Shown: positions 874 to 15,979 of the stretch, one piece after another
Numbering within the stretch: the first letter of the stretch is position 1
Layout: each line of letters opens with the position of its first letter
From: Arenicella sp.
GTDB taxonomy: Bacteria > Pseudomonadota > Gammaproteobacteria > Arenicellales > Arenicellaceae
DNA length: 19,615 nucleotides
Direction: 5' to 3'
Assembly (NCBI GenBank): GCA_023299895.1
Contig: JALZWI010000003.1
Coordinates: 1 to 19,615, forward strand
Program-made: the position numbers and the translations under genes
The notes under the pieces: model-generated
What the model was told of the DNA's origin: nothing
The model's database searches: none
Seen by the model: only the letters and a program-made list of their open reading frames with translations

Positions 874-1683
874 TTAATCAAGGTCTTCTGAAGTTTCTTT
901 ATTAAGATCATTTTGCTCCATTTTGCGCGCAAAAAATAGGCCTAATTCAAACAATAAGTAAACGGGTATGGCTAAAAATAGTTGCGAAAAAATATCGGGT
1001 GGTGTCATCAACATACCCACAACAAAAGCACCTAACAAAATATAGGGGCGTTGTTTGGCCATGTTATCAGTCGATACAATGCCCATTCGTGCTAATAACA
1101 CTGTTGCGATGGGTACTTCAAAGGCAAAGCCAAAAGCAAAAAATAATTTCAACGCAAAACTCATATAGGAGCTGATGTCGGTCATTACCGCAACGCCTTC
1201 AGGTGCCATGCCAACAAAAAAGGCAAAAATTATTGGGAACACCACATAATAAGCAAACATGATGCCGCAATAAAACAACACGGTACTGGACACGATCAAT
1301 GGTAATACTAGTCGCTTTTCGGTGCTGTAGAGCCCAGGCGCGACAAAGGCCCAAATTTGATATAGAACCATTGGAATTGCCACCGCAAAAGCCACCGCAA
1401 ATGCAAACTTGAACGGAATAAAAAATGGCCCGTGTGGTTCGGTTGAGATCATTGTGCCGCCTTGTGGCAGACTGGTAAGGAGTGGCTTGGCGAACCATTC
1501 ATATAATTCAGACGCGAATGGCACTAAACAAAAGAACACCACTAGGATTGTGCCGGCAGCCCACAGTAAACGGTTTCGCAGCTCGACTAAATGCGAAATA
1601 AAACTCTCACCATGCTGTTGGGCGGTTGGTTCTTGTTGGTCGTTTAGGGCCGTTTCAGCACTAATGGTTTTCTCATCGCTCAT
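874..1683 (-). CDS. tatC: Sec-independent protein translocase subunit TatC
   Basis: Six-helix inner-membrane core of the twin-arginine translocase, which with TatB forms the receptor for RR signal peptides and exports folded proteins. The 269-aa product has the hallmark N-terminal signal-binding segment FISHLVELRNRLL (residues 28-40, with the conserved Glu34) and YQIWAFVAPGLYSTEKR (residues 108-124, with conserved Glu122), followed by further hydrophobic helices. It is slightly longer than E. coli TatC (258 aa) because about 25 polar, Gln-rich residues precede the first conserved block. The start at 1683 is preceded by a tandem repeat in which the same ATGAGC context recurs. I chose this ATG because it is the only repeat copy in frame with TatC; each upstream copy runs into a TGA. 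Its ATG overlaps the TGA of a six-codon mini-ORF (ATGA), so expression is probably translationally coupled. Confidence 0.96.
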   Translation of the reverse strand: MSDEKTISAETALNDQQEPTAQQHGESFISHLVELRNRLLWAAGTILVVFFCLVPFASELYEWFAKPLLTSLPQGGTMISTEPHGPFFIPFKFAFAVAFAVAIPMVLYQIWAFVAPGLYSTEKRLVLPLIVSSTVLFYCGIMFAYYVVFPIIFAFFVGMAPEGVAVMTDISSYMSFALKLFFAFGFAFEVPIATVLLARMGIVSTDNMAKQRPYILLGAFVVGMLMTPPDIFSQLFLAIPVYLLFELGLFFARKMEQNDLNKETSEDLD

Positions 1684-1778
1684 GCTGTTTTATTGCTCAT
1701 GCTGTTTTATTGCTCATGGCTGCTTTATTGCTCATGGCTGCTTTATTGCTCATGGCTGCTTTTTTGCTCATGGCTGTT
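1678..1778 (-). repeat. Tandem 17-18 bp repeat at the tatB-tatC junction carrying repeated ATGA stop/start overlaps
   Basis: On the plus strand the units are 1678-1694 and 1695-1711 (17 bp each), 1712-1729, 1730-1747 and 1748-1765 (18 bp each), plus a partial copy at 1766-1778 inside the tatB end. On the coding strand the 18-bp unit reads AATAAAGCAGCCATGAGC; the 17-bp form reads AATAAAACAGCATGAGC. Every unit contains ATGA, a stop in one frame overlapping a start in another. The likely ancestral state is a single CCATGAGC overlap joining tatB directly to tatC, multiplied by slippage. Loss of one C in the two tatC-proximal units shifts frame twice, leaving a 24-codon ORF, then a six-codon ORF (ATG 1700-1698, TGA 1682-1680), then tatC, each joined by ATGA. 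Confidence 0.95.
1697..1771 (-). CDS. 24-codon mini-ORF between tatB and tatC (possible relay ORF)
   Basis: Reading from the ATG that overlaps the tatB stop (1771-1769), the tandem repeat encodes MSKKAA, then MSNKAA twice, then MSNKTA, and stops at TGA 1699-1697. That TGA overlaps the ATG of a second, six-codon ORF. All four in-frame ATGs lead to the same stop. The peptide is low-complexity repeat translation and I do not propose a function for it. Its plausible role is to keep ribosomes terminating and re-initiating between tatB and tatC. No strong Shine-Dalgarno precedes any of the starts. Seen directly: the reading frame. Inferred: that it is translated. Confidence 0.3.
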   Translation of the reverse strand: MSKKAAMSNKAAMSNKAAMSNKTA

Positions 1779-2319
1779 GCTCAGTTTTTTTACTGACTGC
1801 TTTCTTAGTTGCCTTTTTAGAGACTTTTTTGGCTGCTTTTTTAGTTGTCTTCTTGCTTACCTTTTTCTTTGTTTTTTTGTTTGCTGTTTTATTTGCCGCT
1901 ACTTTCTTTTTGTTGGCTTTTTTCTTAGTGATTTTTTTGCTAGCGTCTTTCTCAGACGTTACTTGCTTAACACTGGCCGTAGCGCTGGCTATCGGCAGCA
2001 TTTCACCTTCTGGACCTATTACGTCTTCTGATCCGTCAGGATTTTCAATTTTAGTCTCATGCGAGTCGGCCAGGTCTCGGCCTAATTGTTTCATATCATT
2101 TTTAAAGTTGCTGACTTCTCTTTTCGCTTCTTTGAGCCCTTCAAATGGGTCGCCGCCGAGTTCATTACGCATTTCACTACGAATACGAAACATTCCTTGA
2201 CGCGCTTTGCGCACAAAAAAAGCAGCTTGTTTAGCAACTTCAGGCAAGCGCTCTGGACCAAGCACTAGCAGTAGCACAACTGCGATTACCAGCAGTTCCC
2301 AAAAACCAATATCAAACAC
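1768..2319 (-). CDS. tatB: Twin-arginine translocase subunit TatB with lysine-repeat tail
   Basis: Single-span membrane protein that partners TatC in twin-arginine signal recognition. The start is GTG (2319-2317) and gives the classic MFDIGFWELLVIAVVLLLVLGPERLP, where residues 6-20 form the membrane helix and GPERLP the hinge. An amphipathic, charged helix follows (about 25-85). Length is 183 aa, within the usual TatB range. The C terminus is unusual: residues 124-178 contain 27 lysines in 55 positions, largely in a four-residue KK-x-x rhythm, with almost no acidic residues. The antisense strand of this stretch is correspondingly T-rich and produces a spurious Phe/Leu-rich ORF. The TGA stop overlaps an ATG (ATGA) that begins the junction repeat. 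tatA lies 28 nt upstream. Confidence 0.95.
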   Translation of the reverse strand: MFDIGFWELLVIAVVLLLVLGPERLPEVAKQAAFFVRKARQGMFRIRSEMRNELGGDPFEGLKEAKREVSNFKNDMKQLGRDLADSHETKIENPDGSEDVIGPEGEMLPIASATASVKQVTSEKDASKKITKKKANKKKVAANKTANKKTKKKVSKKTTKKAAKKVSKKATKKAVSKKTEQQP

Positions 2320-6329: not shown

Positions 6330-6575
6330 ATGGCTATTATGAAAAATTTACCTGTCATTGGCACTATGCCTAAAAAGTATCGTAGCTTTATTCGTGAAAA
6401 AGCGATCAGTTACGCACGCACCCGAATTATTGTCGCTGGTGGCGACCCAGCCAAATTCAACTCAGATGATTTAGAAGTGGTGGTTCGCGAAGAAGAAGAT
6501 AAGATTAAAAGCAATATCAAACAAAAAGGCATTCTTGTGGTGCTGGCCTTATTAGGCCTTAACCTATTCGGTTAA
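6330..6575 (+). CDS. Small protein with C-terminal hydrophobic segment, function unknown
   Basis: I do not recognise this 81-aa protein. It has a basic N-terminal half (PKKYRSFIREKAISYARTR), a short GGDPAKFNSDDLEVVV segment, a charged helix REEEDKIKSNIKQKG, and a terminal hydrophobic stretch (about residues 67-80, GILVVLALLGLNLF) that could act as a tail anchor. Most of the protein would then sit in the cytoplasm. The start could be ATG 6330 or ATG 6339; neither has a Shine-Dalgarno. A second small membrane-protein gene follows 17 nt later in the same direction, so the two probably form a transcription unit divergent from hisB. It could be an accessory of a membrane complex, but nothing in the sequence tells which. 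Confidence 0.7.
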   Translation: MAIMKNLPVIGTMPKKYRSFIREKAISYARTRIIVAGGDPAKFNSDDLEVVVREEEDKIKSNIKQKGILVVLALLGLNLFG

Positions 6576-6592
6576 GCACTTAGCTACTAATC

Positions 6593-6985
6593 ATGTTTAA
6601 ACAAGTTTTCAGGCTCACCTTTGTTACTTTTATTTGGAAACAATATAAAAGAGTCATTGTCTCTAGTGCTTTATTATTCGCCTACCTTTGGTTTGTCGGT
6701 TTTGCCCACTCTGAATATTTAAACTTTGCTACTCAAGAAAAAATACAAAACGTCGGCAAGAGCTTTTTCATTAAATGGGTTGCGCTAATTTTAGGTGTGG
6801 CGGCTTATTTGTTATTTCATTATCTCACGCCAAGTCGCAAAAACCTGAAAAAAGATAAAACCAAAGAAGCGATAAAAGTTATGCCTTTGGCGGATGGTGA
6901 ACCAGATCCTTTTGATGAAATACGCACCAAGGAAAAACTAAGGAGTCGCGCCGAAATTCTTATCGACGGGCATAAATCGAAATAG
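6593..6985 (+). CDS. Two-span membrane protein with charged C-terminal tail, function unknown
   Basis: This 130-aa protein has two predicted membrane helices (about residues 21-38, VIVSSALLFAYLWFVGFA, and 61-78, KWVALILGVAAYLLFHYL). A 22-residue, probably periplasmic loop joins them, and a basic then mixed-charge C-terminal tail follows (SRKNLKKDKTK, later DPFDEIRTKEKLRSRAEILIDGHKSK). Basic residues flank both helices on the same side (KQYKR and SRKNLKK), predicting both termini in the cytoplasm. I cannot assign a family. It lies 17 nt after the 81-aa gene and ends 144 nt before the convergent gluQ. Real-gene status is supported by the coherent membrane topology and the absence of any competing ORF of note. 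Confidence 0.75.
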   Translation: MFKQVFRLTFVTFIWKQYKRVIVSSALLFAYLWFVGFAHSEYLNFATQEKIQNVGKSFFIKWVALILGVAAYLLFHYLTPSRKNLKKDKTKEAIKVMPLADGEPDPFDEIRTKEKLRSRAEILIDGHKSK

Positions 6986-9633: not shown

Positions 9634-11202
9634 TTAGCTACTACACGAAAGCATTGAGCAACCCACTTTGGTACGCGCCCAATCAGGTCTTTTCTCAGCG
9701 TAGTGCTCTTTATCAGCTTGTTCGTCATAAGGCTTCCTGAATAATTCTAACAGCTCATTCACCATCGAGTCATCACCCCCTTCTGCTTTATCAATGGCTT
9801 GTTGGGCTAGATAATTCCTGAACACGTATTTCGGGTTGACTGAATTCATTGCAGTTTGGCGAGCGGAAAAATTTCTGCTTTCTTTTCTCAGGCGTTCATT
9901 ATATTCCGCTAACCAGTTCTGCATCGCTTCTAAATAACCTTCACCACGTTGTTCTGGTGCGTAATAGGCGGACTCTAGATCACCTAGTGAAACATGTTCT
10001 TTAGACCCAAGAAGACGATAAAAAATCGTCATATCCGTCTCTACTAAAGCGAGTAAATCTTCTAGTTGTTCAAATAAGTTTTCATCGCCTGCACGGTATT
10101 TTTCAAAGCCCAACTTGCTCGTCATCATCGCGCGCCATTGCGTTTGATAATTGTTCTGAAACTCACTCAAAATATTTTCTAGCGCATCGGTTTTTTCAAT
10201 CAATGGGTAGATTGCATTGGCTAATTGGAACAGATTCCAAAGGGCAATATTCGATTGTTGGCCATAACGATAACGCGCATTTTGTGCGTCGGTAGTATTG
10301 GGTGTCCAGTTTGGATCAAAGTTATCCAACCAGCCATAGGGGCCGTAATCAATGGTTAAGCCAAGAATAGACATATTATCGGTATTCATCACGCCATGCA
10401 CAAAACCAACTCGCATCCAGTCGACAATCATCGTTGCGGTTAAGTCACAGACTTGTTGAAACCATGCTAAGTAAATTTCTTTACTGCCTTGTGAATGAGA
10501 AGTTAATAACGCTGAGAAGTGATGCTTGATTGTAAAGTCAGCTAACTGACGTAATTCATCAAACTCTTTGCGTGACGAAAAAATCTGAAAACTACCAAAG
10601 CGGATAAAGCTCGGCGCGACCCGGCAAACAACTGAACCTGGTTCATAAGCAGGGTTGCCGTCGTAGAGTATATCGCGCATCACTTGCTCGCCCGTATTAA
10701 CCAAACTCAATGCTCTGGTGGTTGGCACACCTAAATGAAACATCGCTTCGCTGCATAAATATTCTCGAATCGATGAACGTAATACGGCCAAACCATCGGC
10801 AGTGCGAGAATACGGTGTTTCACCAGCGCCTTTTAATTGTAGCGCCCAATGCTCACCTTTGGCATTAACCACCTCACCTAAGTTAATCGCTCGGCCATCA
10901 CCTAACTGCCCGGCCCAATTACCGAACTGGTGTCCGCCGTAGCACATTGCATAAGGCTGCATGCCATCGAGCGTATTGTTGCCTGCAAAGGCTTGTAAGA
11001 ATTTCTCGCTTTGACAGTCGTCTTTGCTGAGATCTAACAACTCAGAAACTTCACTAGCATAAGACACTAGTGACGGTGCTTTAACCGGTGTTGGATTAAC
11101 AAAGGAGTAACACGCTTTATGGACTTGCCGACGTTTGCTGCCCGTTTGCGAATCAGCAGGTAATTCGTTGACGAAACGGTTGTCGAATTTTAGAGAGTTC
11201 AT
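9634..11202 (-). CDS. selO: Protein adenylyltransferase SelO (YdiU/UPF0061)
   Basis: Pseudokinase-fold enzyme that transfers AMP from ATP to Ser, Thr or Tyr of target proteins; in E. coli it is linked to redox stress. The 522-aa product keeps the conserved blocks LQLKGAGETPYSRTADG (Lys124), LRSSIREYLCSEAMFHLGVPTTRALS, GFVHGVMNTDNMSILG (Asn273, Asn276) and the metal site TIDYGPYGWLD (Asp285). The C terminus ends GCSMLSCSS, with Cys515 and Cys520; a C-terminal cysteine occupies the place of selenocysteine in animal SelO. It is longer than E. coli SelO (478 aa). The start ATG overlaps the stop of the upstream transporter as ATGA, so the two are probably translationally coupled. Confidence 0.95.
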   Translation of the reverse strand: MNSLKFDNRFVNELPADSQTGSKRRQVHKACYSFVNPTPVKAPSLVSYASEVSELLDLSKDDCQSEKFLQAFAGNNTLDGMQPYAMCYGGHQFGNWAGQLGDGRAINLGEVVNAKGEHWALQLKGAGETPYSRTADGLAVLRSSIREYLCSEAMFHLGVPTTRALSLVNTGEQVMRDILYDGNPAYEPGSVVCRVAPSFIRFGSFQIFSSRKEFDELRQLADFTIKHHFSALLTSHSQGSKEIYLAWFQQVCDLTATMIVDWMRVGFVHGVMNTDNMSILGLTIDYGPYGWLDNFDPNWTPNTTDAQNARYRYGQQSNIALWNLFQLANAIYPLIEKTDALENILSEFQNNYQTQWRAMMTSKLGFEKYRAGDENLFEQLEDLLALVETDMTIFYRLLGSKEHVSLGDLESAYYAPEQRGEGYLEAMQNWLAEYNERLRKESRNFSARQTAMNSVNPKYVFRNYLAQQAIDKAEGGDDSMVNELLELFRKPYDEQADKEHYAEKRPDWARTKVGCSMLSCSS

Positions 11203-15526: not shown

Positions 15527-15979
15527 CTAAAATACTTTCAGGTTTTTGAAAGTGGGTATTTGGTTAGAAAGGTAAGCTCGATCCAAATCCTCAAGCCCAC
15601 TGCGCCATTGTGTAGACTTATCTTGTAATTTAACTTTTTCCAGGCTCTGTGCTAACTCGCGATTTTTAAAACTAAGCTCATGCACTAAATTTTCTAAGTG
15701 TTCAATGTTTTCATTTTTTGACTCCATTACACTTTCATAATTTTCGAACGTTGGTGTCTCAGTCATTGCCACAGAAAATGTCAGCTTTAGCTGATGGTAA
15801 CGGTAATACCAGTCGTTAATTTTTTCCGTTAGCTCTTGGTTTTTTTTAGCTGCTGCCCTTCTTCTAATCTCTTGAGTAGCACACTGAATTTCCAGTCGCT
15901 CATATTTCTCAACTAACTCAGCATGTAATTGTCCACAAACTTTTGATCCAAAAGAAAGTTTTAACTTTTTTAAAAACAT
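15527..15979 (-). CDS. Coiled-coil protein of unknown function
   Basis: I do not recognise this 150-aa protein. It starts with a basic stretch (MFLKKLKLSFGSKVCG), then shows long charged helices with heptad-like hydrophobic spacing (about residues 17-65 and 78-120, e.g. ENIEHLENLVHELSFKNRELAQSLEK). It ends with a less charged tail, LSNQIPTFKNLKVF. There is no signal peptide or membrane segment, so it is probably a cytosolic coiled coil, perhaps dimeric. The start ATG (15979) is preceded at 5 nt by a run of eight G on the coding strand, which could itself pair with the 16S tail as a Shine-Dalgarno. It is convergent with cca and lies upstream of nothing else in its direction, so it is probably monocistronic. 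Confidence 0.7.
   Translation of the reverse strand: MFLKKLKLSFGSKVCGQLHAELVEKYERLEIQCATQEIRRRAAAKKNQELTEKINDWYYRYHQLKLTFSVAMTETPTFENYESVMESKNENIEHLENLVHELSFKNRELAQSLEKVKLQDKSTQWRSGLEDLDRAYLSNQIPTFKNLKVF
15530..15553 (-). terminator. Possible intrinsic terminator embedded in the end of the coiled-coil gene
   Basis: On the minus strand a perfect 7-bp stem ACTTTCA / TGAAAGT with a 6-nt loop (15553-15534) is followed at once by ATTTTAG, whose TAG is the stop codon at the gene end. The stem is AT-rich and the U-run short, so strength would be modest. The gene is convergent with cca nine bases away, so some termination signal is expected here. Confidence 0.35.

Follow-up and report, generated by a model that had tools for sequence, protein, structure and literature searches.

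How can a tandem repeat occupy the junction of two genes in a protein-export operon, right up to the start codon of the second, and what does it do to the translational link between them? The question is raised by a 19,615-nucleotide stretch of DNA from an uncultured Arenicella sp. (contig JALZWI010000003.1), referred to at its full length as the window. Its minus strand carries a gene series that we take to be hisB-hisH-hisA-hisF-hisI-hisE-tatA-tatB-tatC-folD; the his and folD names are our assumption, judged from the translations. The identity of the tat genes was checked by Pfam, and the two that concern us here are:

Positions 1768 to 2319, minus strand: tatB, 183 amino acids with a GTG start, its TGA (1770-1768) lying inside the first ATGA of the junction (Pfam TatA_B_E, E 2.4e-08).
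Positions 874 to 1683, minus strand: tatC, 269 amino acids beginning MSDEK from the ATG at 1683-1681 (Pfam TatC, E 3.6e-68).

Elsewhere in the window, positions 9634-11202 encode a SelO-type protein adenylyltransferase (PF02696) with the C-terminal residues CSS; the gene shares 4 nt with the MFS gene upstream of it, which in turn shares 1 nt with the next. Three ORFs of 81, 130 and 150 amino acids, in 6330-6985 and 15527-15979, have no Pfam match.

The gap between tatB and tatC (minus strand, 1771-1684) is made up of five tandem units of 18, 18, 18, 17 and 17 bp, each opening with ATGAGC. Read directly from the sequence and confirmed by script, which reassembled the junction stretch exactly from them, these are:

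Positions 1754 to 1771, minus strand: repeat unit 1, 18 bp, ATGAGCAAAAAAGCAGCC.
Positions 1736 to 1753, minus strand: repeat unit 2, 18 bp, ATGAGCAATAAAGCAGCC.
Positions 1718 to 1735, minus strand: repeat unit 3, 18 bp, ATGAGCAATAAAGCAGCC.
Positions 1701 to 1717, minus strand: repeat unit 4, 17 bp, ATGAGCAATAAAACAGC.
Positions 1684 to 1700, minus strand: repeat unit 5, 17 bp, ATGAGCAATAAAACAGC.

TRF reports the array at 1678-1776 with a period of 18, 5.6 copies, 96% matches and a score of 163. A preliminary description of this DNA had noted the loss of one C from each of the two tatC-proximal units; this is indeed the case, and the 17-bp units carry a G to A change besides (AAAGCAGCC vs AAAACAGC). 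With a tandem score of 50, against a maximum of 16 among 300 dinucleotide shuffles, the repeat lies far beyond chance. At up to three mismatches its unit has five matches in the window, all five of them at this junction (0.25 expected), and in 18 genomes of the genus it has 6 scattered matches vs 4 for a control pattern. These counts rule out a dispersed mobile repeat within the 19.6-kb window and the genomes of the relatives. Rfam returned no family at gathering score in positions 800-2700, giving no support for a known structured RNA there, and a plasmid collection held no match for positions 1600-1860 of the window.

What the array does to the reading frames can be followed base by base. 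Two putative mini-ORFs, found in the sequence and by script trace, lie between the genes:

Positions 1697 to 1771, minus strand: putative mini-ORF 1, 24 codons, MSKKAAMSNKAAMSNKAAMSNKTA, starting in the ATGA of tatB and ending in the ATGA of mini-ORF 2.
Positions 1680 to 1700, minus strand: putative mini-ORF 2, 6 codons, MSNKTA, its TGA lying inside the ATGA of tatC.

The TGA of tatB (1770-1768) overlaps the ATG of mini-ORF 1 (1771-1769), whose own TGA (1699-1697) overlaps the ATG of mini-ORF 2 (1700-1698), whose TGA (1682-1680) in turn overlaps the ATG of tatC (1683-1681). From tatB to tatC the entire path runs through stop/start overlaps of the 4- or 1-nt kind that characterizes coupled gene pairs. 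The five ATGA units, the three handovers and every coordinate given in the preliminary description thus proved exact by sequence, ORF list, TRF and script trace. The path itself is present in the DNA; its use by ribosomes we infer with some caution, because the evidence from Shine-Dalgarno sequences, from a predicted stem at the tatC start and from coupling in E. coli is mixed.

A relay of this kind arises without selection, because ATGA is repeated at these particular spacings. A step of 17 bp (2 mod 3) places the TGA of the next ATGA in the frame of the preceding ATG, and a step of 18 bp (0 mod 3) places the next ATG in frame. When every array of one to five units, each 17 or 18 bp long, was enumerated, tatC could be reached from TatB in 62 out of 62, with the native start in 31 and with an MSNKAA-type extension in the other 31; as had been predicted, units of 18 bp throughout gave an in-frame extension of TatC, in all five such arrays. 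None of 301 further arrangements with a 19-bp unit, and none of 1302 further arrangements with a 16- or 19-bp unit, retained tatC on the path. In the actual array, native TatC stays on the coupled path after the loss of any single unit (5/5), so that a one-unit change does not switch the downstream protein or its frame in the manner of a phase-variable locus. Among the subsets of the five units, 25 of 32 lead to native TatC, 7 (those made of 18-bp units only) to the extended form, and none loses it. The array is therefore buffered against slippage; it is probably not a copy-number switch, and the earlier suggestion that copy number might switch the TatC N terminus is not supported. Units of random sequence, followed from their first ATG, sorted by period: at 2 mod 3 the native start was reached at any of 1-4 copies (84-88%), at 0 mod 3 an extension resulted (80-85%), and at 1 mod 3 the native start was reached with even copy numbers (72-79%) and seldom with odd ones (1-2%). 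The unit of the window fails at a period of 1 mod 3, in our reading because its third frame holds a TAA.

The same junction was then compared across relatives. TatC was found in 163 of them, from which 92 junctions were taken (17 from the genus, 15 from further loci and 60 fetched), making 93 with the window; tatB was located in 91 of the 93, and the tatC starts are our choice among in-frame starts, some of which may be wrong. A tandem repeat covers the tatC start codon in two junctions, that of the window (score 50) and that of G014 (score 31), a member of the genus of 18 genomes in which TatC was found in 17; the next-best scores, 17 and 16, fall inside tatB. The array of G014 consists of three 17-bp copies of ATGAGYACTAACGACTA, a different unit from that of the window, and at up to one mismatch all three matches in that genome lie at tatC. 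Copies 1 and 2 each encode MSTND with a stop overlapping the next ATG, and copy 3 forms the start of TatC (MSTNDYVEK). This chain stops short of TatB because it opens with an ATG 44 nt beyond the tatB stop. Two other relatives, G017 (L042) and G087 (L104), have an unbroken relay via one mini-ORF and no repeat. A short repeat of another kind, ACCTGGATA in 2.4 copies, stands immediately before the tatC start in L093 (G091).

Direct overlap of TatB and TatC by 4 or 1 nt occurs in 8 of the 91 junctions with tatB located, the window included. Within the genus it is found once in 17 (L041, 4 nt, GTGA), and tatC starts within 10 nt of the tatB end in two more (L045 at -8; L042 at +7, with the start chosen by homology). 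In the other 14 of 17, G014 among them, tatC begins 24-125 nt past the tatB stop. Direct overlap is thus not conserved, which weakens the earlier view that relatives often join the two genes directly, and TatC is evidently often made without it, given gaps of at least 24 nt in so many members of the genus.

Nor is the topology of the relay in itself exceptional. The tatB stop of the window is now 84 nt from tatC, and shuffles of this gap still connected TatB to TatC in 10.5% of cases. Across the 65 junctions with a gap of 1-150 nt, on which the shuffle null was computed, mini-ORFs overlapping the tatC start numbered 6 against 4.5 expected. A continuous relay was counted in 5 against 3.6 expected, a figure that takes in L084 and L092, which overlap directly and were entered with a later start, and L042, where the relay survives every shuffle of the 7-nt gap. 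Once an ATGA-rich repeat exists, the relay is not rarer than chance.

Where the repeat may have come from is hinted at by the end of tatB, which adjoins it:

Positions 1797 to 1896, minus strand: imperfect 12/36-bp repeats encoding the Lys/Ala-rich tail of TatB (TRF).

These repeats and the array units have a 13-mer and a 12-mer in common (AAAAAAGCAGCCA, AATAAAACAGCA), and when the codons of the tail were shuffled 2000 times, 29 shuffles yielded a shared 13-mer or longer. The TatB of the window and its closest relatives, P0122 and P0123, all have QP as their last residues, which is consistent with an ancestral CC-ATGA junction, without proving one. A Lys-rich tail of variable length is present in 12 of the 13 TatB sequences compared, the window included, and absent from P0155, on the G014 side. 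A frameshift in tatB was considered as the cause of the layout and rejected: adding or removing one base of the A7 run gives a premature stop or a TatB longer by 8 residues, and joins tatB to neither the mini-ORFs nor TatC. A search with the TatB of the window found no second sequence of the species among 5.8 billion database proteins, the next match being 78% identical. The closest relative of its TatC among the matches listed, P0001, is 90% identical and also starts with MSDEK; over P0001 to P0012 the identity of TatC spans 81-90%. No MSNKAA-like or repeated N-terminal extension occurred among 120 listed of 7999 TatC matches, and none in the 2 matches to a 90-residue piece of TatC.

Signals for initiation at the junction itself say little. 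None of its six ATGs has a Shine-Dalgarno sequence (best -1.9 kcal/mol), which is uninformative here, since 5 of 8 other window starts scored (folD, tatB, hisF, hisH and hisB) are without one too. Folding places the tatC start codon in a stem:

Positions 1656 to 1687, minus strand: predicted hairpin with the tatC start codon in its stem (-4..+2 with +23..+28), -7.8 kcal/mol.

The hairpin is unexceptional, as eight other starts in the window fold at -2.5 to -12.0, and the whole tatB-tatC junction folds with a z of -1.9.

If the layout follows from arithmetic, it should not be confined to tatBC. Of 369 gammaproteobacterial genomes, 11 contain four ATGA at 17-bp spacing, and a control with the pattern reversed gave no hit among the matches listed. 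In one of the 11, G367 (L121/L614), three extra 17-bp ATGA units, with mini-ORFs MTRFTP, MTRSSP and MTRSTP, lie between genes for a DUF2066 protein (PF09839) and a CDP-alcohol phosphatidyltransferase (PF01066), both Pfam-supported. The sole other genome of its family examined, G256 (L615), joins these two genes by one direct ATGA, a 367-codon frame ending SYKP being followed there by MMRWLP. This difference suggests a direction of change, presumably from a simple overlap to an array. The arrays of the other ten genomes did not join two ORFs in this test.

Viral sequences provide further cases. In IMG/VR, 75 stretches match the pattern of ATGA at 17-bp spacing. On the minus strand of L148, from 7337 in reverse-complement coordinates, four identical MRTSTI mini-ORFs link ORFs of 139 and 105 residues, neither with a Pfam or PHROG match, and in L175 four copies of MKEKFL precede a 75-residue ORF; most other viral arrays are not at the start or stop of an ORF of at least 60 residues. 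Arrays joining two such ORFs numbered, among the matches listed, 2 of 233 for periods of 2 mod 3 vs 0 of 124 for 1 mod 3 (the scans for periods 16 and 14 being lower bounds, again among the matches listed), so few cases that no period class is seen to be favoured at viral junctions. A richer example is terL, the gene for a phage terminase large subunit, identified by PHROG match. In 7 of 31 relatives a series of ATGA units, each of 7 or 8 bp, runs up to and includes the terL start codon. The arrays in IMG/VR contigs L626, L627, L628, L629, L651, L653 and L654 have 6, 6, 6, 13, 6, 12 and 12 units, respectively, and the TerL proteins of the first three contigs are identical. Followed from the first ATG, six of the seven arrays lead on to TerL, the exception being the 13-copy 7-bp array of L629. 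L629 and L653 are identical over 250 nt upstream and over the first 288 nt of terL, and differ in having 13 vs 12 copies. As the two contigs stand, a start-codon array here differs in copy number, whether by nature or through assembly; the case concerns a phage, not the bacterium of the window. By frame arithmetic the difference would toggle coupling from the first ATG. One could envision, more broadly, that ATGA start-codon minisatellites form a general class of self-coupling variable loci in bacteria and phages, in which the period mod 3 would set the behaviour (relay at 2, extension at 0, an even-copy parity switch at 1) and copy number would determine how much downstream protein is made, in the present case the TatC:TatB ratio; in this breadth the idea is a long shot.

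How do these findings relate to systems already described? According to PMC12548453 (2025, citing Supply et al. 1997), MIRUs insert at start codons so that the ORF of the unit is coupled at -4 spacing, with likely minimal impact on the coupled gene. Their copy number is variable, and effects on operon translation were proposed (PMC2734929); it differs between isolates at 12 of 41 sites (PMC12548453/PMC2734929). For one mycobacterial repeat region, the mRNA level of the following gene was linked to the length of the region (PMC2734929), so that such repeats need not be silent. The mini-ORFs of the window share the -4 stop/start overlap with MIRUs. They differ in that MIRUs are 40-100 bp long (PMC2734929) and the window units 17-18 bp, and in that MIRUs are dispersed and apparently mobile, whereas the matches to the unit within the 19.6 kb of the window all lie at this junction; a 17-bp period, moreover, shifts the frame at each such step, which gives mini-ORFs of 6 and 24 codons. 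MIRUs are a described precedent of the same principle, and the earlier statement that no example was known has to be narrowed: it stands for the short-unit ATGA kind, for which the titles and abstract openings of the open-licence literature yielded nothing, either on short tandem ATGA arrays or on repeat-mediated tatB-tatC coupling. The array departs from MIRUs in having a short unit of local origin, a change of frame with every 17-bp step, a place between tatB and tatC of a gammaproteobacterium, and several handovers in series.

Ordinary termination-reinitiation pairs with ATGA/TGATG overlaps, which are enriched among subunits of heteromeric complexes (PMC6728339, PMC10666635), have the same 4-nt overlap as the window; unlike them, the window has three overlaps in series, two of which serve only mini-ORFs made by the repeat. 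Leader uORFs and synthetic bicistronic designs resemble it in that a short ORF feeds ribosomes to a gene (PMC12548453, PMC10367133, PMC5995908), and the window differs in having a chain that is natural, serial, repeat-derived and fed by an upstream gene. The axe-txe minigene and the double mini-ORF of Bacillus subtilis ycbK are alike in that one or two mini-ORFs upstream alter the translation of a gene (PMC8708949); these lie 5-15 nt before the gene, and no tandem repeat is named for them, whereas the window presents an unbroken series of overlaps.

Taken together, the observations probably describe a tolerated, self-coupling minisatellite at an ATGA TatB/TatC junction, a buffered passenger more than a regulator. 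The array, its place and its neighbours are plain to see; growth by slippage or tandem duplication is what we infer from them, and it would have taken place locally, where an ATGA junction adjoins the Lys/Ala repeats at the end of tatB. A ribosome ending TatB would re-initiate at the ATG at 1771, read 24 codons and stop, re-initiate at 1700 for 6 codons, stop again, and then re-initiate at the tatC ATG at 1683. In E. coli, re-initiation fell by 80-90% in two gene pairs, and was lost altogether in a third, when the overlap was extended to a gap of +38 nt (PMC10666635). One would thus expect a plain gap of 84 nt to break the coupling of tatC; the consecutive -4 overlaps span those 84 nt and could restore it. 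Re-initiation reportedly required no more of an upstream ORF than its final 15 nt (PMC10666635), and constructs of phage GA showed AUGA coupling without a Shine-Dalgarno sequence (PMC9955659). On the other side, removal of the Shine-Dalgarno sequence in E. coli cut re-initiation by 60-90% in three of five gene pairs and abolished it in one (PMC6728339), and three handovers without such a sequence may therefore pass few ribosomes. The level of TatC would perhaps be somewhat lowered, each extra handover costing ribosomes. The repeat would be tolerated because it is self-coupling, in that gain or loss of a unit leaves TatC made.

The main rival to this reading holds that tatC is initiated independently at 1683 from an A-rich leader, the mini-ORFs being incidental and hardly translated and the repeat a neutral filler. 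Non-overlap is the usual state in the genus, several other genes of the window start without a Shine-Dalgarno sequence, and the overlap of mini-ORFs with tatC is near chance, all of which speak for independent initiation. We nevertheless consider it rather unlikely, since the expansions in G014 and in G367 relative to G256, at or before a start codon, keep the overlap path intact, and a stem, though one no stronger than at other starts, is predicted to enclose the tatC start codon.

The preliminary description had favoured a contingency locus, in which slippage would tune the TatB:TatC ratio or switch the TatC N terminus. Slippage is to be expected of tandem repeats that adjoin a repetitive tatB tail, the extended TatC does result when both 17-bp units are lost and an 18-bp unit is kept, and both the phage pair with 13 vs 12 copies and the mycobacterial region whose length went with expression (PMC2734929) offer parallels. 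The native outcome of all five single-unit losses argues against it, as do the TatB search, with no variant of the species in the protein database, and the lack of repeated or MSNKAA-like extensions among the listed TatC matches; such a locus is very unlikely here. Still more doubtful is that the layout was fabricated by an assembly or sequencing error, with fewer true units or a frameshift in tatB. A run of 7 A just before the tatB stop and the single sequence of the species found by the TatB search would fit such an error; the units, however, form an ordered series of three variants and not five identical copies, TatB has the same QP end as its two closest relatives, and a separate genome, G014, has the same kind of array.

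The proposed self-coupling minisatellite bears on more than one operon. Phages and a second, unrelated pair of genes show the same layout, so that this class of junction may be escaping both gene callers and repeat surveys. Natural chains of two to twelve re-initiation steps offer material for estimating efficiency per handover. For the protein-export operon of Arenicella, the array would mean that a tandem repeat can grow between its genes and yet spare the next one, the repeated ATGA bringing its own stop/start overlap.
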